This document shows positions 12,472-62,711 of a DNA stretch of 64,000 bases, in pieces. The stretch's first letter is position 1, and the number at the start of each line of letters is the position of its first letter. The position numbers and the translations under genes were made by a program. The stretch is from Candidatus Baltobacteraceae bacterium (GTDB taxonomy: Bacteria; Vulcanimicrobiota; Vulcanimicrobiia; Vulcanimicrobiales; Vulcanimicrobiaceae), in assembly GCA_036488875.1 (NCBI GenBank), contig DASXGW010000008.1, positions 62,001 to 126,000 of the forward strand. Reading direction: 5' to 3'. The notes below the pieces were generated by a model. The model had not been told where the DNA came from. It did no database searches and worked only from the letters and a program-made list of their open reading frames with translations.

Positions 12472-12852
12472 CTACGCGTTACGGCGTTTTTCAATCACCC
12501 GCTTAACGACGGCCATTGCGTTGAGTGCCCGGGGAAATCCCACATAGGGTATCAACGTCATCACCGCTTCGACGATCTCGGACTCGGTCAACCCGACGTT
12601 GAACGCACCGTGAACGTGCGTTTCGAGTTGACGATCGCATCCGCCCATCGTCGCTAACGAAGCGATGGCAATCAGCTCCTTGTGACGGAGGTCCCCCTCA
12701 CGCGCGTAGATCTCGCCGAATGCAAACTCGACGAGGTACCGCGTAAAGTCGGGCGCGACGGATTCGTACTCGCGCAGTAAATTGTCGGCGACTCTATCGC
12801 CGTCGACTTTTCGTAAGAGCCGTTCGCCGCGCTCGCGCGCGCTTTCGCTCAC
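12472..12852 (-). CDS. Carboxymuconolactone decarboxylase family protein
   Basis: A 126-residue all-helical protein of the CMD family (PF02627), with the family core FGEIYAREGDLRHKELIAIASLATMGGCDRQLETHVHGAFNVGLTESEIVEAV. The proteins act as 4-carboxymuconolactone decarboxylases or AhpD-like hydroperoxidases; here a single cysteine is seen and the CxxC of AhpD is absent, so peroxidase activity is not supported. GTG start at 12852 overlaps the stop of the oxoglutarate dehydrogenase fusion gene (GTGA), so it is co-translated with it. The link to central metabolism is unexplained. Confidence 0.85.
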   Translation of the reverse strand: MSESARERGERLLRKVDGDRVADNLLREYESVAPDFTRYLVEFAFGEIYAREGDLRHKELIAIASLATMGGCDRQLETHVHGAFNVGLTESEIVEAVMTLIPYVGFPRALNAMAVVKRVIEKRRNA

Positions 12853-15800
12853 TCCGACAGCGCCAGCCCGAGGATGCGTTCCTGTTCCACGGCGTGTTGG
12901 CCGGCATAGCCTTCCGACGGGCTCGCGCGGTAACCGCGGCCGATGTATTCGATGTCGAAGCCGTCGCGTTTGCTTTCCAGCAGCCGGCGCCGCACGAACG
13001 CGCGCGCCCCCATGTTCTTGGGCTCTTCCTGAACCCAGACGATCTTCTTGAGATTCGGATAGTTTCCGATCACGCGGTTGATATCGGTCGCCGGGAGCGG
13101 CGCGAGCAGTTCGATACGCGCGATGGCCGATTTCTTCAACTTACCGGCACCCTCGTGCGCGACGAGGTCGTGATAGATCTTGCCGCTGCAGAGAATGAGC
13201 CGTTCGATGCTGTTGCGATCGAGCTGCCGAGGATCGTCGATAACCGGCATGAACGTGCCGCGGGCCATTTCGTCGAGCGATCCGGACGCGGTCTCGGCTC
13301 GCAGCAGCGACTTGGGCGTCATCACGACCAGCGGAACGGCAATCGGCGATCGCGCCTGCATGCGCAGCAGGTGGTAGTAGTTGGCCGCCGTCGAGGGATA
13401 GGCAACGCGCAAGTTGCCTTCGGCCACGAGCTGCAGAAAACGCTCGAGACGCGCGCTGGAGTGCTCGGGGCCGCCGCCTTCATAGCCGTGCGGAAGCAGC
13501 AAGGTCAGACGTGACGTCTGTCCCCACTTCGCTTGGCCCGCGGCGATGAACTGATCGACGATGATCTGCGCGCCGTTGAAGAAGTCGCCGTACTGTGCCT
13601 CCCAGAGAACCAGCGCGTTGGTCTCTTCGGTCGAGTAGCCGTACTCGAAGCCCATGCACGCGTATTCCGATAGCGGACTGTTGTGGATCTCGAACGACGC
13701 CTGTCCGCTGGAAAGATGCTGCAGCGGAATCCACGTGTTTCCGCTGGACGGATCGTGCAACACGGCGTGGCGGTGGCTGAACGTGCCGCGCTCGGTGTCC
13801 TGTCCGGTGAGACGAATCGGCGTGCCGGCGGTGAGCAGCGACGCGAAGGATAGCGCTTCCGCGGTTCCCCAATCGACGATCCCCTTCTCGCCAATCGTAC
13901 CCTTGCGGCGTTCGAACTGCGTGAGCAGTTTTTTACTCGGTCCGAAGCTTTCGGGAACGGCCGCGATCGCTTCGCTCCAGGTAACCAGCTGCGCGCGATC
14001 GACCGGCGCGAGTGCGGTACCGTCGAAGGTATTGCTGCCCGACATTTTGCGGCCGTGCAGGTGCGCCGCCAACACGCCCTTGACCGCCTTGCGTGCCTCC
14101 TGCAAACGCTCCATCGCGGCGTCGATCATCGCCTGCGACTGTTCTTGCGTGAGCACTCCCTGATTGATGAGTTTGTTGGCAAAGAGCTCGCGCACGGTCG
14201 GATGGCTCTTGATCTTCTCGGCCATATGCGGCTGCGTGTACGCCGGTTCGTCTTGTTCGTTATGACCGAAACGGCGGTAGCCGATGAGATCGATGAGCAC
14301 GTCCCGGCTGAACGCGCGGCGGTAATCGATGGCCAAGTGCACGGCCGCAATACACCCGTCGACGTCGTCGGCGTTGACGTGCACGATCGGCACGTCGAAG
14401 CCTTTTGCCAAGTCGGACGCATAGCGCGTCGACCGCGCGTCGAAGGCGTCGGTCGTAAACCCGATCTGATTGTTGGCGATCAGGTGAACGGTGCCGCCGG
14501 TTTCGTAGCCCGGCAGCGATTGTAAATTGAACACTTCGGAAACGATGCCCTGGCCGATGAATGCGGCGTCGCCATGGATGAGAATCGGCACCGCACGTTT
14601 GCGTTCGAACGACGGCACGCCGTGGCTGTGGTCGGTTTGCAGCGCGCGCGCGCTCCCCTCGACGACCGGATCGACGGCTTCGAGATGGCTGGGATTGTGT
14701 GCCAAGGTGACCGCGATGCGCTTGCCTTTGGCGGTAACGAAGTCGCCCTTCGCGCCGTGATGGTATTTAACGTCGCCCATCACGTCGTCGTCGCCGAGCT
14801 GGCCTTTATACTGTCCGGCTTCGAACTCGGTCATAACTTCTTCGTACGGCATGTCGACGACGTGTGCGATCACGTTGAGCCGTCCGCGATGCGCCATGCC
14901 GATCACGGCGTTGTCGACGCCGTCGTCGGCAAGCATGTCGAGCATCTCTTGCAGCATCGGAACCATGACGTCGAGACCCTCGCCCGAGAACGTCTTCTGG
15001 CCCATGAACGCCTTGCGCACGTAACGGTCGAAGGCTTCGACGCGCGTGAGCCGCTGCAGAAACTCGATTTGCCGTTCCGGCGAAAACTTGATCCGATTCT
15101 TGCCCGTCTCGATGTAATCGCGCAGCCACACGCGCTGCGTGGCGTTCGAAATGTGCTCGATCTCGTAGGCGATCGTCGAGCTGTACGTTTCTTTGAGGTG
15201 CGGCAGCACCTCGGCGAGCGTGTTGCCCGGAAGCTTCACGCGTAAGACGCTGGCCGGAATCGCACTCTGCAGCGCCGGCGTCAAGCCGTACGTCTGCGGT
15301 TCGAGCGAAGAATCGCCGACCGGTTCGGTGCCGAGCGGATCGAGATTAGCGGCTAAGTGGCCGAAGCGCCGGTACGCCGAAACGATCGCCATGCCGGCCG
15401 CGACCGCGCGCAGCATTTCGTCCGAAGGCGCAGCGGCAGGCGCGCCCGACGCCGCGGCGGCGCCGGCGGCAACGGTGACTTGCACGACGGCAGCGGCTTG
15501 TAAACCCAACGACGCAAACACCGATTCGTAGAAACCGTCTTTGCCCTGCAGAAGCTCGTCGACGCGCCGCAGATACTCGCCGGATTGAGCGCCTTGAACG
15601 ACGCGGTGATCGTAGGTGCTCGTCATCTGCATCACGCGCGACACGCCGAGCAGCTTGAGCGATTGCTCGTTCGCGCTGGCAAAGCCGGGGGGATAGCCGA
15701 TCGCTCCCGCGGCGATGATCGCGCCTTGTCCGGCCATCAAGCGCGGCACCGACGCGACGGTACCGATGCCGCCGGGGTTGGTGAGCGTAAACGACGCGCC

Positions 15801-17102
15801 TTGCAGATCGTCGGCGGTGAGTTTGTTGTCGCGCGCCTTGACGACCAGCTCTTCGTACTTCAGGCGGAACGATGCGAAGTCCAGATCGTCGGCGTTCTTG
15901 ATGACGGGAACCACCAGGAAGCGCGATCCGTCTTTACGCTCGGCGTCGACCGCCAATCCTAAATGCACGCCCGGCTCGACGCGCTGCGGCGAACCGCCTT
16001 CGTCGCGCCGGAACGAGTTCGTGATCGCCGGAATATCGTGCGCCGCGCGCACCAGCGCGTAGGCGATGATGTGCGTGAACGAAACTTTTTCGTTGCGTCC
16101 CGCAGCCTTGATCGCGCCGTTGAGCTCCTTGCGGCGCGCGTCGAGCACGTCGACGAGGAGGGTGCGGAAGCTCGTCGCGGTTGGAATCGTGAGGCTCTGC
16201 TCCATGTAGCTGGCCAAGGTCGCGACCGGACCTTTGAGCGGCGTCAGCTTCGCACCGGCCGGTACCGGCGGCAGCGGCAACGCGGCGCTCGCGGAAACGG
16301 CCGGCGCGCGGCGCTTCGCCTGCTGGGCTTGATCGAGCACGTCGCCGCGCAGAATCAATCCGTTGGGTCCCGATCCGCGCACGAGCGCGAGATCGACGTC
16401 GAGCCGTTTTGCCATGCGACGCGCGGGTTGATCCGCCACGAAATTTTCGGAGCGTTGGGTTGCGCCCTTCGACTCCGCGCCTGCGGCGCTACGCTCAGGA
16501 CTGCGCTCGCTTCGCGAGCTTGGCGGTAAGGAAGTTGAAATTGCGTTCGCATCGATTTCCGCCAGCTTTGCGCCGACGGTAACCGTGTCGCCGGGAGCGA
16601 CGAGCACGTTGACGATCGCGCCGCTCGCGGGAGCCGGAATTTCGACGTCGACTTTGTCGGTCGTCACGTCTAGCAGCGTTTCGCCTTCCTGCACGTAGTC
16701 GCCGGCGCGTTTGCGCAACTCGACGACCGAACCTTCGGTCACCGACTCACCCATTTCGGGGAGCGTTACTTCGACGATGCGCGGCGGCCCGGCGGGCGCG
16801 GGCGCCGCGGCCGGAGGTGCGACGGCAGCCGCTTTCCCGTTGCCGTTTCGCGCGGTGTCGATGTGCGCGAGTGCCGATCCCACCGCAACCGTATCGCCTT
16901 CGTTGACGAGAATCTGCGTGATGACTCCCGACGCAGTCGCGGGAACTTCCACGTCGACCTTATCGGTGGTGACGTCGACCAATGCGTCGCCCTCGGCGAC
17001 GAAATCGCCGACTTTCTTACGCCATTCGACGATGGAGCCTTCAGTGACCGACTCACCCATTTCGGGCAGCGTCACGGTCACGGTCCCTGCCAGTTCTTCC
17101 AA
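12849..17102 (-). CDS. Fused 2-oxoglutarate dehydrogenase E2 (two lipoyl domains) and E1
   Basis: This 1417-residue protein combines E2 and E1 of the 2-oxoglutarate dehydrogenase complex. In order: two lipoyl domains (lysines in TTDKVD, residues 48 and 150), an Ala/Pro linker and a 197-216 linker, a peripheral-subunit-binding domain (about 222-258), the succinyltransferase domain (about 285-520, STYDHRVVQG with His near 499), and a full thiamine-diphosphate E1 (from about 570, with MAHRGRLNVI, HHGAKGDF and GHNEQDEP). Known actinobacterial KGD/OdhA fusions have the same E2-E1 order and the DHR..QGA variant but lack lipoyl domains. The TTG start is supported by GAGGTG upstream. E3 is not in the window. 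Confidence 0.93.
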   Translation of the reverse strand: MEELAGTVTVTLPEMGESVTEGSIVEWRKKVGDFVAEGDALVDVTTDKVDVEVPATASGVITQILVNEGDTVAVGSALAHIDTARNGNGKAAAVAPPAAAPAPAGPPRIVEVTLPEMGESVTEGSVVELRKRAGDYVQEGETLLDVTTDKVDVEIPAPASGAIVNVLVAPGDTVTVGAKLAEIDANAISTSLPPSSRSERSPERSAAGAESKGATQRSENFVADQPARRMAKRLDVDLALVRGSGPNGLILRGDVLDQAQQAKRRAPAVSASAALPLPPVPAGAKLTPLKGPVATLASYMEQSLTIPTATSFRTLLVDVLDARRKELNGAIKAAGRNEKVSFTHIIAYALVRAAHDIPAITNSFRRDEGGSPQRVEPGVHLGLAVDAERKDGSRFLVVPVIKNADDLDFASFRLKYEELVVKARDNKLTADDLQGASFTLTNPGGIGTVASVPRLMAGQGAIIAAGAIGYPPGFASANEQSLKLLGVSRVMQMTSTYDHRVVQGAQSGEYLRRVDELLQGKDGFYESVFASLGLQAAAVVQVTVAAGAAAASGAPAAAPSDEMLRAVAAGMAIVSAYRRFGHLAANLDPLGTEPVGDSSLEPQTYGLTPALQSAIPASVLRVKLPGNTLAEVLPHLKETYSSTIAYEIEHISNATQRVWLRDYIETGKNRIKFSPERQIEFLQRLTRVEAFDRYVRKAFMGQKTFSGEGLDVMVPMLQEMLDMLADDGVDNAVIGMAHRGRLNVIAHVVDMPYEEVMTEFEAGQYKGQLGDDDVMGDVKYHHGAKGDFVTAKGKRIAVTLAHNPSHLEAVDPVVEGSARALQTDHSHGVPSFERKRAVPILIHGDAAFIGQGIVSEVFNLQSLPGYETGGTVHLIANNQIGFTTDAFDARSTRYASDLAKGFDVPIVHVNADDVDGCIAAVHLAIDYRRAFSRDVLIDLIGYRRFGHNEQDEPAYTQPHMAEKIKSHPTVRELFANKLINQGVLTQEQSQAMIDAAMERLQEARKAVKGVLAAHLHGRKMSGSNTFDGTALAPVDRAQLVTWSEAIAAVPESFGPSKKLLTQFERRKGTIGEKGIVDWGTAEALSFASLLTAGTPIRLTGQDTERGTFSHRHAVLHDPSSGNTWIPLQHLSSGQASFEIHNSPLSEYACMGFEYGYSTEETNALVLWEAQYGDFFNGAQIIVDQFIAAGQAKWGQTSRLTLLLPHGYEGGGPEHSSARLERFLQLVAEGNLRVAYPSTAANYYHLLRMQARSPIAVPLVVMTPKSLLRAETASGSLDEMARGTFMPVIDDPRQLDRNSIERLILCSGKIYHDLVAHEGAGKLKKSAIARIELLAPLPATDINRVIGNYPNLKKIVWVQEEPKNMGARAFVRRRLLESKRDGFDIEYIGRGYRASPSEGYAGQHAVEQERILGLALSE
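16464..16500. repeat. REP-like repeat, copy 2, inside the E2-E1 fusion gene
   Basis: On the minus strand this stretch carries the same ends as copy 1: TCCTGAGCGTA (16490-16500) and GAGTCGAAGGGC (16464-16475), around a central GCGCC-TGC-GGCGC hairpin. A further CTCGC-TTC-GCGAG hairpin follows at about 16505-16517. It lies in frame inside the oxoglutarate dehydrogenase fusion gene and encodes about residues 197-216 of the linker between the second lipoyl domain and the subunit-binding domain, a Ser/Arg/Ala-rich stretch unlike the rest of the protein. No stop or frameshift results. Confidence 0.75.
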
Positions 17103-17184: not shown

Positions 17185-17361
17185 ATGCGTACCAGCCTAG
17201 CCCGCGTGGTCCGGGGCACGACCGATCCGGACCGGGGGCTCGCCCCCTTGGCCCAGCCCGCGGCCGAACCCGAACTCGACCAAGAGGCGATCGAGCTCGC
17301 AAACGCGTCGATCGTCGCGGCCGCCTTGGGCCTGGGCATCTACATCGAGACGTTGGTATAG
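17185..17361 (+). CDS. Small hypothetical protein, 58 residues
   Basis: An open frame from ATG 17185 to TAG 17359-17361 encodes 58 residues. The frame has high third-position GC like its neighbours, an acidic middle (EPELDQEAIELANAS) and a hydrophobic C-terminal helix (IVAAALGLGIYIETLV). AAGGGA lies about 12 bases upstream and could be a weak ribosome site. It occupies the 237-base gap between the start of the oxoglutarate dehydrogenase fusion and the end of the YeiH gene, whose last 22 bases it overlaps in antisense. No family is recognised; it may be spurious. Confidence 0.4.
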   Translation: MRTSLARVVRGTTDPDRGLAPLAQPAAEPELDQEAIELANASIVAAALGLGIYIETLV

Positions 17362-18323
17362 TGCGCGATCGCTAGACTTCCGAGCACGATCGCGACCCAT
17401 AGCACCGCGCCCAGCACGAGCGGCCGAAAACCGGCCGCTTTTATGCGTGAGAGATCCGACGAAAGACCGACGCCGGCCAGGGCGACGACGATGGTGAAGA
17501 GCGCGATCCGTTGTATCGGCGCGTGCCATCCGGCCGGAATCGCGCCGACGCTGTCGAGCGTTGCAGCGACGAGAAACCACAGAATGAACCACGGAATCAC
17601 GGCGCGCCAGGGAACGGGCTTGTCTCCGGCGCGATGCGCGAGCATTCGCCTCCACGCGTAATAGAGAACGACGGGTACGATGAGCAGCGTACGCGTGAGC
17701 TTCACGACCACCGCGGCGTTTCCGGCAGTGTGACCGTACGCGAACGCGGCCGCGACGACGGACGACGTGTCGTTGATCGCCGTACCGGCCCACAGGCCGA
17801 ACGCCCCTTGCGTAAGCTGCAGCGCGTGACCGAGCGCGGGAAACGTCAGGACCGCGACGACGTTAAAGAAGAAAATCGTCGCCAGCGCGTACGCGACGTC
17901 GGAGCGGTCGACGTCGATCACGCTCGATAGCGCCGCGATAGCGGACCCGCCGCAGATGGCCGTGCCGATCGCGAGCAAACGGCGCAAATCGTCGTCGAGC
18001 GCGAGCGCGCGACCCGCAAAGTACGCAATCAGCAGTACCAGAACGAACGTTCCGAGCATCACGGGAAGTGCGGCACGGCCGCCCAAGGCAATTTCCCCGA
18101 GACTCAGCTGCGCGCCGAGCAGCACGATCGACCACTGGAGCACCACCTTGGCGGCAAATCCGGTGCCCGTGCTCCACAACGGCGAGAGCGGCCGGACGGC
18201 GGCGATTGCTACGCCCAAAACGATGGCAAACACCGGCGCGCCGACGAGCGGAACGTACGATCCCAGTATCTCGGCGACGGCCGCAAGTGCGACGCACGCC
18301 AAGAGTCCCGGAAGCAAACGCAC
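17340..18323 (-). CDS. YeiH/UPF0324 family putative sulfate (anion) exporter
   Basis: A polytopic inner-membrane protein of 327 residues with about ten hydrophobic helices, of the UPF0324/YeiH family. Family stretches include WSIVLLGAQLSLGEI, AIGTAICGGSAIAALSSVI and LWAGTAINDTSSVVAAAFAYG. The family is annotated as putative sulfate exporters, by association rather than by direct transport assays. The GTG start at 18323 lies three bases after the cytochrome gene, so this is the last gene of the four-gene operon starting at 20730. In that setting, export of sulfite, sulfate or another sulfur anion is a sensible but unproven role. Confidence 0.87.
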   Translation of the reverse strand: MRLLPGLLACVALAAVAEILGSYVPLVGAPVFAIVLGVAIAAVRPLSPLWSTGTGFAAKVVLQWSIVLLGAQLSLGEIALGGRAALPVMLGTFVLVLLIAYFAGRALALDDDLRRLLAIGTAICGGSAIAALSSVIDVDRSDVAYALATIFFFNVVAVLTFPALGHALQLTQGAFGLWAGTAINDTSSVVAAAFAYGHTAGNAAVVVKLTRTLLIVPVVLYYAWRRMLAHRAGDKPVPWRAVIPWFILWFLVAATLDSVGAIPAGWHAPIQRIALFTIVVALAGVGLSSDLSRIKAAGFRPLVLGAVLWVAIVLGSLAIAHYTNVSM

Positions 18324-18326
18324 GCG

Positions 18327-19121
18327 CTAAAAGTATCGCGCGGGTGTCGGCTCGGGCGCGACTATACGGTCGCCCTGGAAACGCGGCCGCTTGTGACTGA
18401 GCACGAACGCCGACACGTCGTAGGCATCTCCGATCGACAGCGATCCGGGCGCGTTCTGCGGCATATTGTAGTGGACGAATCCGGTCATTCGGTCGAGATG
18501 CGCCATGCCGGCCCCGTTATTGAACGACGTGTCTCCCCACAATGGTGGAAACGCACCGCTCACACCGGCGCCGTTGGCCTGATGGCACGCGACGCATTTT
18601 TGTCCATAGACGTGCGCGCCGTGCGCGACGTTGGGTGCGCCGGGAGGCAACGGCACGATGAAGCGATCGCCCTCGCGCTCCTTAGCCAAATTCGGTATTC
18701 CGCGCGATAGCCACGAAATGTAGGAGACCAGCGCGATCATCTCGCGGCTGGAATAGGCCGGGGGGCGGCCGTTCATACTATAAAGGAAACACTCCGCCAA
18801 CCGGTCCTGCAGCGTGATGACTCGCTTCGATCGCTTGTTCCATTGGGGAAAGCGCGCGTACGCACCGACGAGGCTGCCGCCCTTCGACTTTAAGCCGGCA
18901 TCGATGTGACACGCGGCGCACGACATGTCCGTGCGGACGTAATCTTTCATCAGCACTTGCGTGCGCGTCAGGATGTCGTGCCCGTAGCGAATCGACTCGC
19001 CCACCGGTCCCGGCGGCAGCGCCTTGGGATCGTACGTCGGACGCGAGACTTCAAACGTATTGTTCGAGCCTACGGAGCACGCGGCGAGCGCCAGCGCGAG
19101 TACGAGCGCGAACCGTTTCAC
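18327..19121 (-). CDS. TsdA-like dihaem cytochrome c (thiosulfate dehydrogenase family), lipoprotein
   Basis: A 264-residue exported dihaem cytochrome. A lipobox (LAAC, Cys15) suggests membrane anchoring. Haem motifs are CAACH (68-72) and CVACH (176-180). The N-terminal domain matches thiosulfate dehydrogenase TsdA: HIDAGLKSKGGSLVGAYARFP, LQDRLAECFLYSMNG and MIALVSYISWLSRG. Cys111 stands where TsdA has its axial cysteine haem ligand. TsdA joins two thiosulfates to tetrathionate or does the reverse. GTG 19121 is chosen because the signal peptide begins there and it overlaps the upstream stop (GTGA); the longer open frame is antisense-like. The neighbours (DsrE-like, YeiH) support a sulfur role. 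Confidence 0.85.
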   Translation of the reverse strand: MKRFALVLALALAACSVGSNNTFEVSRPTYDPKALPPGPVGESIRYGHDILTRTQVLMKDYVRTDMSCAACHIDAGLKSKGGSLVGAYARFPQWNKRSKRVITLQDRLAECFLYSMNGRPPAYSSREMIALVSYISWLSRGIPNLAKEREGDRFIVPLPPGAPNVAHGAHVYGQKCVACHQANGAGVSGAFPPLWGDTSFNNGAGMAHLDRMTGFVHYNMPQNAPGSLSIGDAYDVSAFVLSHKRPRFQGDRIVAPEPTPARYF

Positions 19122-19828
19122 AGGATCGGCGTGATGTACGTGTAGTGGTACGTCGCCTGCAAAACGGCGATGGTCGCGACCATCGACGGAACGACGACCG
19201 CGCCGGAAATCAGGTGCGTCAAAATGTCGCCGGCGACTTGCGACGGCGTCATTCCCGCCGGCGCTAAACCTTTCTTGACGATATTGCGCGCCTGTTCTTC
19301 GACGGCCGTGTGACAGGTGAGCACGATGAGTCCGCGCTCCTGCAGCGCCTCGATGGACGTGTCCTGATACATGCCCTTGTCGTCGTCGGGATCGGCATTG
19401 CGATCGGCCGGCGAGTGGCGCTTTACGTAGACGTTCGAGCCGATCGGCGCTCCGGCAGCATCCTTGAGGTCGAACAGCTGCCCGATTTTGTACTTGTCCC
19501 AAACGTAGTCGGTGTACGCGTACGACGCCGACGCGCCGTGCCCGGCCAACGCTACCGCGATGGCGCCGGCCGGATATCCGAAGCCGAACTGCAGGCCGTT
19601 GAAACTGTTTTTGACGTTATTGAGAAGCGCCGGCTTGAACGTAACCGCTTCGTACAGCTGCCGGATTTGCGCGTCACGGCCCACGATCTTCGCGAACGCG
19701 TCCATATCGAAATCGGCCTTACGCTCGACGAAATGGGTACCGCCGGGAATGCCGTGCGATTCCTGGGCGAGGGCCTGACCCGAGGCCGCCGCGACGGCCG
19801 AGGCGGCGAGAAAGGCGCTGCGATTCAT
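19118..19828 (-). CDS. Exported DsrE-like protein
   Basis: A 236-residue protein with a cleavable signal (MNRSAFLAASAVAAASGQALAQ). The C-terminal half has the layout of exported DsrE/DsrF-like proteins: a strand ending in a conserved cysteine (GLIVLTCHTAVEE), then a helix and a final VPSMVATIAVLQATYHYTYI segment resembling the VPAGV...LQ..GY.Y ending of that family. DsrE-type proteins carry sulfur on the cysteine. Overlap with the cytochrome gene and 5-base spacing from the binding-protein gene place it in a sulfur operon. The first 130 residues are less familiar. The family call is inferred from pattern, so moderate confidence. Confidence 0.6.
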   Translation of the reverse strand: MNRSAFLAASAVAAASGQALAQESHGIPGGTHFVERKADFDMDAFAKIVGRDAQIRQLYEAVTFKPALLNNVKNSFNGLQFGFGYPAGAIAVALAGHGASASYAYTDYVWDKYKIGQLFDLKDAAGAPIGSNVYVKRHSPADRNADPDDDKGMYQDTSIEALQERGLIVLTCHTAVEEQARNIVKKGLAPAGMTPSQVAGDILTHLISGAVVVPSMVATIAVLQATYHYTYITPIL

Positions 19829-19833
19829 CAGGG

Positions 19834-20730
19834 TTACTCCTCCTTTGCTGCGCCAAACGGCGAGCCGAATCCATACGAGCGGAAGATGTCACGCGCCTGC
19901 GGACTGTCGAGAAAGCGCACGAACTCCTCAGCCAGCCGCACGTGCGGCGCGCGCGTCGTAACGGCTGCTTGGTACGTTGCGGTAGCGTTGAGCCTCGACG
20001 GGATGGCTATCACTGCGACGGGAGCGCCGATGCGCTCTTGGTGAAGCCCTTCGGTCAACCAAAGCGGACCGGCGTCGACGCGTCCCTGCACGAGCCACAA
20101 CGGCGTCTGGCGATGGTGGATTTGCGTCAGCATCGTCGTGCCGTTGCGAACCTTCGTCACCATCACCGCATCGACGAGACGCGCGCCGCCGGTCTCGTGC
20201 ATCGACAGCTCGATTTGCCGCGCGATGCCTTCGTATGCCGGATTCGGCATGGCGACGCGTACGTCGGATCGTCCCAAGTCCGCCATGCCGGATACGTGCT
20301 TGGGATTGCCGCGACGCACGAGAATCGCAAGCGTGTTGCTGGCGTACGTCGTTGGATCTCGCACGAGCCCGGCGCTGCGGACCTCGGCCATGCGCCGCCG
20401 TCCGGCCATAAAGACGTCGGCCGGCGCGGAGACGCTCAAAGCACCGACTCGCAACGTCCCCGACGCAAGCTGCGCAGCCAATATTCCCGGCGGCAACGTT
20501 TCGTAGAAGACCGGCGCGGCGTCGGGATGGCTGCGCACAAAAGCGTCGACGATCGCGGGCATCGCCATCCATTCGTTGCCACCGACGAACAAAACGAGCT
20601 TTGCATTATGCAGATCGCCGTGCAAGTCCATGACGTCGTCGACGCCCGACGCGCTAAATGACGGCACGGTCGAGGGCTCGGCCGCACAACACACGGCCAG
20701 AGCCAGCCCGGCAATAAGGAAGCGCAGCAC
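19834..20730 (-). CDS. Periplasmic substrate-binding protein (ModA/type 2 binding-protein fold)
   Basis: A 298-residue exported binding protein: signal peptide MLRFLIAGLALAVCCAAEP, then a type 2 periplasmic fold with LVLFVGGNEWMAMPAIVDAF, ADVFMAGRRRMAEV, NTLAILVRRGNPKHVSGMADL and VRVAMPNPAYEGIARQIE, as in molybdate/tungstate/sulfate binding proteins. No permease or ATPase is adjacent. It is the first gene of the operon with the DsrE-like, TsdA-like and YeiH genes, so it may bind a sulfur oxyanion for the cytochrome rather than feed an ABC importer. The GTG start has TACGCT exactly six bases upstream, consistent with a leaderless transcript. Confidence 0.75.
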   Translation of the reverse strand: MLRFLIAGLALAVCCAAEPSTVPSFSASGVDDVMDLHGDLHNAKLVLFVGGNEWMAMPAIVDAFVRSHPDAAPVFYETLPPGILAAQLASGTLRVGALSVSAPADVFMAGRRRMAEVRSAGLVRDPTTYASNTLAILVRRGNPKHVSGMADLGRSDVRVAMPNPAYEGIARQIELSMHETGGARLVDAVMVTKVRNGTTMLTQIHHRQTPLWLVQGRVDAGPLWLTEGLHQERIGAPVAVIAIPSRLNATATYQAAVTTRAPHVRLAEEFVRFLDSPQARDIFRSYGFGSPFGAAKEE

Positions 20731-20744
20731 GCCCCAAGCGTAGG

Positions 20745-21665
20745 ATGCCGGAACGAATAAGTCAAATGATACGTTTGATTCCGAACATGTCGTTTGAAGA
20801 CACGCACGAGACCGATCCGGGCAACGCCACGTCGCTCTCGCTGAACCGAGGCGCTTTCGTCGGCATCGCCGCCGCCGCCGGTTCCGGAATCGCTGCGACG
20901 GCCGTTGCTCGCGCGCAAACCACGCTCGGACAGCCGCATCCGCCGCTCGTCGCCGAAGACGATCCCGCGATTTCGACCGATCGCGTGGAGCTGCGCCGTC
21001 CCGATGCAGTCGTTCCGGCCTACGCCGCGTGGCCCGTGAAGGCGCCGGTGAACGTTCCGTCCGTCGTCGTCATCATGCATATCTGGGGCGTCGACACGTC
21101 GATCCGCGACGTCGTTCGGCGCTTGGGAAAGGCCGGGATCGCCGCCATCGCTCCCGATCTCTACGCGCGCTTCGGCGCGCCCAGCGGTGACGGAAGTACC
21201 GACATCGCTACCTTCCGGCCTTACGCGTCGCAGCTCGACCGCAAGCAGTACGACGGGGACATTCGCGCGGCCGCGTTGTGGCTCTCGACGAAGTTTTCTT
21301 CGACCAAGACCGGCGTGCTGGGATTTTGCATGGGGGGTCACATCGCGTTGATTCAAGCGCTCGACAATGCCGACGTCTTTAGCACCGTATGTCCGTTTTA
21401 CGGATCGCTCAAAGACATCGATCCCGATAAGATTCACATGCCGGTCTGCGGCAGTTACGGCGCGCGCGATACCAGCATCTCGGCCGACGACGTGCGAACG
21501 TTCCGAAGCTTGCTGCACGTTCCCAACGACATTCGCGTCTACAATACGGCCGGTCACGCGTTCTTCGACGACCAGCGCGCGTCGTACGTGGCGGCCGCGG
21601 CGACCGATGCCTGGAAGCGGACCGTCGATTTTCTCCTCGAGCAGCTCGGGAGCAAGAACCGATGA
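20745..21665 (+). CDS. Dienelactone hydrolase family protein, exported
   Basis: A 306-residue alpha/beta hydrolase of the dienelactone hydrolase family. The nucleophile motif is GFCMGGHIA with a catalytic cysteine, the histidine is in YNTAGHAFFDD and the acid lies in SYGARDTSI. A hydrophobic segment after LNRGAF (about residues 36-55, GIAAAAGSGIAATAVARAQ) looks like an export signal, Tat-like but with a single arginine. The start is uncertain: ATG 20745 lies inside a possible -10 box (TAGGAT 20741-20746), so ATG 20766 or 20787 may be the true start. It overlaps rmuC by four bases. Confidence 0.85.
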   Translation: MPERISQMIRLIPNMSFEDTHETDPGNATSLSLNRGAFVGIAAAAGSGIAATAVARAQTTLGQPHPPLVAEDDPAISTDRVELRRPDAVVPAYAAWPVKAPVNVPSVVVIMHIWGVDTSIRDVVRRLGKAGIAAIAPDLYARFGAPSGDGSTDIATFRPYASQLDRKQYDGDIRAAALWLSTKFSSTKTGVLGFCMGGHIALIQALDNADVFSTVCPFYGSLKDIDPDKIHMPVCGSYGARDTSISADDVRTFRSLLHVPNDIRVYNTAGHAFFDDQRASYVAAAATDAWKRTVDFLLEQLGSKNR

Positions 21666-61577: not shown

Positions 61578-62711
61578 CTAGGCGTTCCCCAGCACGTCCC
61601 GGTCCTTCTGTGAGTAAATGTTGAGCAGCACGCCGATCGACGCAAATCCCGTCAGAATCGCGGAGCCGCCGTACGAAACGAACGGAAGCGGAATGCCCGT
61701 GATCGGCATCATGCCGATCGTCATGCCGACGTTGACGAGGACGTGGAAGAAAAACGCGCCCACGATGCCGGCGGCCAGCAAGAATCCGAAGCGGTCCCGC
61801 GCCGCCAACATCGTGCGTATGCCGCCGTAGATGAGCACGACGTAAAGTGCCAGCAGCGCGAGCGCGCCGAGAAATCCCCACTCCTCGGCCAAGACCGTAA
61901 AGATGAAGTCGGTCGAGTTTTCGGGGACGAATCCGAGTTGGGTCTGCGTGCCGTGATGGAATCCGCGACCCAGCCACTCACCGCTGCCGACCGCGATCTT
62001 CGATTGATTGAGGTTGTAGCCGGATCCGAGCGGATCGAGCTTCGGATTGAGAAAGACGAGCAAGCGAGCTTTCTGAAACGGCTTGAGCACCGCGTTGGTG
62101 CCGACGGCGGCCGCCGCGACGAGCACGACGCCGAACGCGTAAATCGCGAAGTCGCCGAGTCGCGGCAATCCGAAGAACAACACGGTACTCAATATCGCCA
62201 ACAGCACGAGCGCCGTGCCGAGATCGGGCTGCTTGAGAATCAGCAGCGCCGGAATCGCGACGGTGAGCAGCGGCTTCCACAGATCTTGCAAGTTCTCGTA
62301 CGTGCCTTTGCTCATCACGGCAGCCAACGCTATCGCCAAAATGAGTTTGGCCGGCTCGGACGGCTGGAACGTGCCGAACGGACCGAGCGAGATCCAGCGC
62401 TGCGCGCCCAGCGCGCTGTGACCGCCGCGCAAAATGAACAGCAGTAAGAGCAGGTTGACGGCGTAAAGATACGGCGCCCACCGCTGCCAGTTGCGATAGT
62501 CGACCAGCGAGAAGACGAACATCAGCGGAATGCCGAGCGCCACGTACATGATTTGACGGCGCGCCTCGCCGGCAAAAGCCGGATTGTGAAAACCGGCGGA
62601 ACTGATGCACGCGATACCAATCAGCGTGATTGCGCTGCCGGCGATTGCGAGCGGCCAATTGAACGTGCGAGCGTAGCGCTTAGCGCTGCTGCGAACGGTG
62701 AGTGTCGCCAA
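61578..62711 (-). CDS. rodA: Rod-shape determining glycosyltransferase RodA
   Basis: A 377-residue SEDS-family peptidoglycan polymerase with ten membrane helices. Family stretches: GAQRWISLGPFGTFQPSEPAKL, KQPDLGTALVLL, FVPENSTDFIFTVLAEEWGFLG and GIPLPFVSYGGSAIL. RodA elongates the lateral wall together with PBP2. Position after minDE, as in many rod-shaped bacteria, favours RodA over FtsW. The TTG start at 62711 follows minE by seven bases. Confidence 0.93.
   Translation of the reverse strand: MATLTVRSSAKRYARTFNWPLAIAGSAITLIGIACISSAGFHNPAFAGEARRQIMYVALGIPLMFVFSLVDYRNWQRWAPYLYAVNLLLLLFILRGGHSALGAQRWISLGPFGTFQPSEPAKLILAIALAAVMSKGTYENLQDLWKPLLTVAIPALLILKQPDLGTALVLLAILSTVLFFGLPRLGDFAIYAFGVVLVAAAAVGTNAVLKPFQKARLLVFLNPKLDPLGSGYNLNQSKIAVGSGEWLGRGFHHGTQTQLGFVPENSTDFIFTVLAEEWGFLGALALLALYVVLIYGGIRTMLAARDRFGFLLAAGIVGAFFFHVLVNVGMTIGMMPITGIPLPFVSYGGSAILTGFASIGVLLNIYSQKDRDVLGNA

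Follow-up and report, generated by a model that had tools for sequence, protein, structure and literature searches.

A four-gene operon of Eremiobacterota that pairs a TSD-family protein with the dihaem cytochrome TsdA, a candidate periplasmic thiosulfate/tetrathionate module

The Eremiobacterota are a little-studied phylum of soil bacteria. We analysed a stretch of 64,000 nucleotides from a Candidatus Baltobacteraceae bacterium (positions 62,001 to 126,000 of contig DASXGW010000008.1, assembly GCA_036488875.1, 3.7 Mb and 97.6% complete), hereafter called the window, and found in it a compact operon that pairs two unrelated thiosulfate dehydrogenases, namely a protein of the thiosulfate dehydrogenase (TSD) family and the dihaem cytochrome c TsdA. 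This follows from the TSD homology of the second gene of the operon and the TsdA identity of the third; the first gene encodes an orphan solute-binding protein (SBP) and the last one a putative sulfite/sulfate exporter of the YeiH family. We consider it rather probable that the operon specifies a module for thiosulfate and tetrathionate in the periplasm, in which the partner of the TSD-like protein is TsdA, as an alternative to DoxDA.

All four genes are located on the minus strand. The SBP gene (20730-19834, start codon GTG) is followed by the gene of the TSD-family or 'DsrE-like' putative secreted protein (19828-19118, ATG), by tsdA, whose product is a predicted lipoprotein (19121-18327, GTG), and by yeiH (18323-17340, GTG). 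The spacings between the four open reading frames (ORFs) are +5, -4 and +3 bases, exactly as described in an earlier sequence-only reading of the window. The range given there for the four genes, 18323-20730, ends at the YeiH start codon and thus leaves the YeiH gene itself (17340-18323) outside. An Rfam search returned nothing.

The TsdA cytochrome and the TSD-family protein

The third gene encodes a well-supported TsdA, for which the sequence comparisons predict interconversion of thiosulfate and tetrathionate. Its product matched the Pfam families SoxA-TsdA_cyt-c (PF21342, 5.9e-18) and Cytochrom_C (PF00034, 1.4e-13), and the structure of the Allochromatium vinosum TsdA (4wqc) was matched across both domains, over residues 34-250, with an E value of 4e-46. 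The haem-binding motifs CAACH (haem 1, residues 68-72, 18906..18920) and CVACH (haem 2, residues 176-180, 18582..18596) are present on the minus strand, as are the codons of Cys111 (18789..18791), which aligns with the haem-1 cysteine ligand of A. vinosum TsdA, and of Met220 (18462..18464), which follows Asn219 and occupies the position of the haem-2 axial ligand (ligand roles from PMC5146829). In an alignment of 18 TsdA sequences both CxxCH motifs, Arg107, Cys111, Ser115 and Met220 were all invariant. The two motifs and Cys111, which had been picked out beforehand in a lipoprotein cytochrome, are present, in addition to a lipobox (LAAC), and the structure match, the Pfam domains and the conserved Cys and Met haem ligands bear out the assignment of this cytochrome to TsdA. 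A classification as SoxA was rejected, as the SoxA model gave 48.7 bits where 110 are required; SoxA structures scored at most 33 bits against the cytochrome, compared with 161 for TsdA. Like TsdA/TsdBA of A. vinosum, Campylobacter jejuni and Marichromatium purpuratum, the window protein has the dihaem architecture, the haem-1 Cys and the haem-2 Met. Unlike these, it is a predicted lipoprotein, has a TSD-like partner and carries Asn in place of Lys208, and its operon is devoid of a TsdB cytochrome.

The second gene encodes a protein that is, judged by its sequence, a distant and divergent relative of the tetrathionate-forming TSD of Acidithiobacillus ferrooxidans (AFE_0042). Its sole NCBIfam match was NF052225 (ThioSDhTetH; 113.8 bits, E 8e-33), and the equivalog cut-off of this model, 300 bits, was not reached, which makes the protein a homologue of TSD but not a certified member of the family. 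Two other Eremiobacterota proteins pass this cut-off. When the profile of the family was compared with that of proteobacterial TSDs by hhalign, the probability was 99.9% over 183 columns, covering most of the mature protein, and the residues Cys172-His173 (codons 19310..19315, minus strand) did not vary among 29 Eremiobacterota homologues and lined up with the Cys-His pair that the proteobacterial TSDs share without exception. As regards membership of the TSD family, an SBP neighbour is present at 19834-20730, and the same pairing is found in Proteobacteria.

In A. ferrooxidans, the TSD gene AFE_0042 adjoins the genes for a periplasmic SBP (AFE_0043) and for doxDA (AFE_0044), and the expression of these tsd-sbp-doxDA genes is higher on sulfur than on iron (PMC2754497, PMC6335251). 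The enzyme forms tetrathionate and is unable to reduce ubiquinone or horse cytochrome c (PMC6335251), and the pathway figure in a 2024 review gives an electron acceptor as '?' (PMC10859504). The window operon resembles this cluster (AFE_0041-0046) in that a TSD-family protein adjoins a periplasmic SBP with an anion-transporter gene nearby. However, the proposed redox partner is TsdA and not DoxDA, the exporter is YeiH and not a TDT-type protein, and the TSD-like protein belongs to a separate, divergent subfamily. The A. ferrooxidans TSD itself reportedly contains no haem, a result attributed to Kikumoto et al. in 2013.

The label 'DsrE-like', which the second gene had been given at first, was upheld only in part. 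The profile comparison supports a DsrE ancestry (hhalign probabilities of 91.8 and 70.6, whereas unrelated controls gave 0.3-0.4), but Pfam and Foldseek do not: no Pfam family matched the protein at E ≤ 1, including DsrE (PF02635). Since the likeness was seen by profile comparison and not by Foldseek, the DsrE-like nature of the protein is plausible but unproven, and its closer identity is that of a divergent TSD relative. With DsrE3A of Metallosphaera cuprina it shares similarity at the profile level and a conserved Cys that aligns with the DsrE Cys; unlike the DsrE family, it is larger and secreted and lacks a PF02635 match or a significant fold match. Two more TSD-family paralogues are encoded on contig C1 of the source genome (L042:8573-9454 and L043:8501-9217; 45% and 23% identity), both with the cysteine kept and no TsdA nearby.

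Conservation and recurrence of the pair

The 38 closest loci were taken from GTDB genomes, and every record naming a phylum belonged to the Eremiobacterota, while the others carried just the label 'bacterium'; this places the window in that phylum. A same-strand tsdA gene lay directly downstream of the TSD gene in 34 of them; among the other four, two are cut off by a contig end at the TSD gene, one locus (L033) is divergent and one (L034) is without TsdA. The SBP gene was found upstream in 20 loci and yeiH downstream in 19, and all four genes occurred in 16, some of which were cut by a contig end. The four-gene order thus recurs in other genomes, and because it is present in 16 of the 38 loci and the central pair is adjacent on the same strand in 34, the arrangement of the operon is not a matter of chance. 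In addition, we surveyed 149 Eremiobacterota genomes, in which 59 TSD-family hits of at least 88 bits were obtained. TsdA was located within 1.5 kb of 47 of the 59 hits, on the same strand in 46 cases, and several of the exceptions were contig breaks, while the SBP stood alongside 20 of the hits. At the level of genomes, TsdA was also present in 50 of the 55 with a TSD (Fisher p 2e-20, uncorrected for kinship).

The pair was also detected in other surroundings. In one genome SBP, TSD and TsdA occur a second time, among other neighbours (L035 as against L021), and a distant Eremiobacterota family (f3), which belongs to the same class, has a cluster of MBL-rhodanese, TSD, TauE, rhodanese and TsdA (L085, L087). 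In a further genome (G084) the syntenic slot is occupied by a proteobacterial-type TSD (401 bits), which falls among the plasmid TSDs in a tree; the tsdA gene overlaps the gene of this TSD, yet its product stays with the Eremiobacterota TsdAs. Here one component, the TSD, has been exchanged in place and the TSD-TsdA pairing has been kept.

The pairing of TSD and TsdA is not local but crosses phyla. TSD genes accompanied by a cytochrome c and TsdA, and in most cases by an SBP, were found on plasmids of Paraburkholderia fungorum, Methylobacterium radiotolerans, two Bradyrhizobium, Burkholderia stagnalis and Caballeronia, with YeiH also nearby in the Methylobacterium and B. betae plasmid clusters. 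The acetobacterial plasmids (Gluconobacter, Kozakia) have TSD-SBP-DoxD and, as far as the sequence was read, no TsdA; there DoxD, like DoxDA in A. ferrooxidans, would be the partner that accepts the electrons. Altogether, the 12 plasmid TSD loci that were inspected had TsdA in seven cases, DoxD in two and neither in three. On a Hymenobacter plasmid (Bacteroidota) the order is YeiH-TsdA-DsrE-SBP-SBP, a true DsrE (PF02635) being in the place of the TSD. In public annotations the plasmid TSD genes (L119-L130) are called 'transcriptional initiation protein Tat' or 'hypothetical protein', which is uninformative for a putative enzyme family, and no paper combining 'transcriptional initiation protein Tat' with thiosulfate was found in open-licence PubMed Central. 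One plasmid (NZ_CP130332.1) is labelled Lysinibacillus fusiformis, and its TsdA scores about the same as that of a Stenotrophomonas plasmid (40.8 and 41.2% identity over the same span), so the label may be wrong.

The binding protein, the exporter and the neighbouring genes

By its family (SBP_bac_11, PF13531, E 1.4e-43) and its predicted fold, the product of the first gene is a periplasmic oxyanion-type binding protein; the AlphaFold model matched ModA, PEB3 and SubI, with a best E value of 3e-14. It is 40-46% identical to SBPs encoded beside TSD, TsdA, DoxD or DsrE in Proteobacteria and Bacteroidota, and is probably a homologue of the Acidithiobacillus sbp (AFE_0043). Two more specific assignments were rejected: as the ModA of an ABC importer it scored 45 bits against a cut-off of 62.5, and as a sulfate CysP/Sbp protein 32.5 against 155.5, the importer being encoded elsewhere with an SBP of its own. 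Neither the operon nor its immediate surroundings include a permease or ATPase gene. Since the CysTWA sulfate ABC importer of the source genome (contig C14) has its own binding protein, the SBP of the operon is an orphan, in agreement with how it was first described. It stands beside 20 of the 59 TSD-type hits and accompanies TSD and DoxD without TsdA on the acetobacterial plasmids, which makes TSD, rather than TsdA, its more constant companion; being absent beside most TSD-TsdA pairs, it is an accessory component. Members of the same SBP family were observed in two other settings. At L151:3401-6059 (genome G057) the SBP gene adjoins one gene for a molybdopterin protein that resembles sulfite oxidases and one for a small protein that may be a cytochrome, a further association with sulfur oxidation, and at L155:2406-3742 (G058) it overlaps the gene of a CsoR/CstR-type repressor that possibly senses sulfide or persulfide.

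The last gene belongs to the family Cons_hypoth698 (PF03601, 2.4e-72; 243.9 bits against a gathering score of 24.5), although the cut-off of the YeiH subfamily TIGR00698 was not reached (138 against 232.6 bits). In Hyphomicrobium, yeiH is the gene most strongly induced by thiosulfate (526-fold) and its product is a proposed sulfite exporter (PMC11582611). The window protein and YeiH/SuyZ Hden_0834 share the family and the tie to thiosulfate oxidation, and they differ in that the window YeiH lies below the NCBIfam cut-off and is embedded in a TSD-TsdA operon. No description of the combination of TSD, TsdA, SBP and YeiH was found in open-licence PubMed Central papers, in line with the impression of the sequence-only reading that no such system was known. 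Two papers there treat both TsdA and YeiH; in them YeiH is the Hyphomicrobium exporter gene, and the passages seen mention no such operon.

Divergently from the operon lies a gene for a dienelactone-hydrolase-like (DLH) protein with an apparent signal peptide (20745-21665, plus strand), a family that recurs beside the operon in 26 loci. On its other side, a single ORF of 1417 amino acids (12849-17102, minus strand) combines lipoyl/dihydrolipoyl-transferase-like and 2-oxoglutarate-decarboxylase-like (KGD) parts and keeps its synteny with the operon across the family. A candidate promoter, TTGACT-17-TACGCT (20765-20737, minus strand), was noticed by eye. It ends six bases before the GTG of the SBP gene, which would mean a leaderless transcript; the promoter scan did not return it, and the scan, which gave 2 sites against 0.9 expected, was not used. 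In 21 loci a LysR-type regulator gene is located just upstream of the operon (e.g., L004:4049-4972), and the window is without it. A LysR gene adjoins yeiH in Hyphomicrobium too, and its product is a proposed sulfite sensor (PMC12423496).

Proposed mechanism, alternatives and significance

The genuine TsdA and the kept gene order support the notion, already raised in the sequence-only reading, of a periplasmic module for thiosulfate and tetrathionate. In such a module the orphan SBP would hold a sulfur oxyanion in the periplasm and may present thiosulfate or tetrathionate to the TSD-family protein. The latter, through its invariant Cys172, could carry thiosulfate as a Cys-S-thiosulfonate or condense two thiosulfates, and would pass electrons and/or the thiosulfonate to the neighbouring TsdA. 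With Cys111/His at haem 1 and His/Met at haem 2, TsdA would catalyse or complete the conversion between thiosulfate and tetrathionate, its electrons going to a cytochrome c in the periplasm and to haem-copper oxidases, and YeiH would export the sulfite or sulfate that further processing of the sulfur yields in the cytoplasm. More generally, TSD-type proteins would most likely act on the substrate by way of their invariant cysteine and require a redox partner, TsdA for an electron route to cytochrome c and DoxDA for one to quinone. The source genome has two COX1 genes and no SoxB over the cut-off. That TSD-type proteins may handle thiosulfonate on a cysteine is supported by analogy with the chemistry of two other proteins: the catalysis of TsdA goes via a Cys-S-thiosulfonate (PMC4423706), and DsrE3A forms and transfers a protein-Cys-S-thiosulfonate (PMC4175335). 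We infer the physical partnership, the Cys172 chemistry, the SBP ligand, the division of labour, the direction of the reaction (with oxidation preferred) and the cargo of YeiH.

Several observations weigh against this interpretation. TsdA enzymes of other bacteria work without any TSD, and TsdA is missing from the vicinity of some TSD paralogues and of three TSDs on plasmids. The TSD-like protein of the window stays far below the equivalog cut-off (114 against 300 bits), a score at which TSD-like activity cannot be assumed, and a Foldseek search of its model (pLDDT 87) gave no significant fold match in the PDB. The whole neighbourhood of the operon (RmuC, KGD, DLH) is syntenic within the Eremiobacterota family, so that adjacency within the family is not independent evidence and the weight rests on the independent contexts. 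Finally, Asn219 of the window TsdA stands where the oxidising A. vinosum enzyme has Lys208.

The last point bears on the possibility that the module runs mainly in reverse, with TsdA reducing tetrathionate, either in respiration or for detoxification, and with the TSD-like protein binding tetrathionate and handing it over. TsdA is bidirectional, the reductive C. jejuni TsdA likewise has Asn at the position of the A. vinosum switching ligand Lys208, just before the ligand Met (PMC5146829), and DsrE3A is reactive towards tetrathionate and unreactive towards thiosulfate (PMC4175335). The Asn leaves the direction of the reaction open; it occurs in most TsdAs of the 18-sequence alignment, including those of related clusters with sulfur-oxidation genes (MBL-rhodanese, TauE, YeiH, oxidase). 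As these clusters, together with the two haem-copper oxidase genes that point to aerobic respiration, speak for oxidation, we regard the reverse direction as unlikely.

There is a similarly small chance that the TSD-like protein is a general periplasmic sulfane-sulfur carrier of the DsrE type, neither a thiosulfate dehydrogenase nor a partner of TsdA, which would then act alone, the genes being merely co-regulated. The score below the TSD cut-off and the profile similarity to DsrE are compatible with this, and a protein of the DsrE type stands beside TsdA and/or the SBP, instead of the product of the second gene, in Hymenobacter and in two distant members of the Eremiobacterota. However, the slot beside TsdA is also filled by TSD-type proteins, one of them above the TSD cut-off, and the closest characterised relative of the protein is a thiosulfate dehydrogenase.

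Still less probable is the proposal of the sequence-only reading that the cytochrome receives the anion straight from the binding protein, which would replace an ABC importer. The orphan status of the SBP, with the CysTWA importer having a binding protein of its own, would fit it, and two distant Eremiobacterota have an SBP adjoining TsdA with no TSD hit. On the other hand, most TSD-TsdA pairs lack the SBP, which also occurs with TSD and DoxD where no TsdA was seen and beside the sulfite-oxidase-like pair. Plain chromosomal synteny, in which unrelated genes are held together by common descent without a functional link, agrees with the wide conservation of RmuC, DLH and KGD around the operon in the family, but is highly improbable and was rejected as a full explanation, given the intergenic distances of +5, -4 and +3 and the recurrence of TSD and TsdA in Proteobacteria, in a further locus within one genome and, with other neighbours, in the distant family f3.

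Cooperation of the TSD-like protein with TsdA in a periplasmic module is thus the reading we prefer. As a tentative extension of it, which we think has more against it than for it, TSD and TsdA, which pass for unrelated alternatives, could in many bacteria be two halves of one system, where TSD would handle the substrate or thiosulfonate, and TsdA (by a cytochrome c route) or DoxDA (by a quinone route) would serve as interchangeable electron acceptors. The electron acceptor of the Acidithiobacillus TSD is an open question, and a TSD-TsdA pairing that alternates with DoxDA names two testable partners for it. Plasmid genes now annotated as 'transcriptional initiation protein Tat' or 'hypothetical protein' could be given names based on function. 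For the Eremiobacterota, where a Sox system has been reported in Vulcanimicrobium (PMC9758169), the module would add a widespread thiosulfate/tetrathionate route besides Sox.

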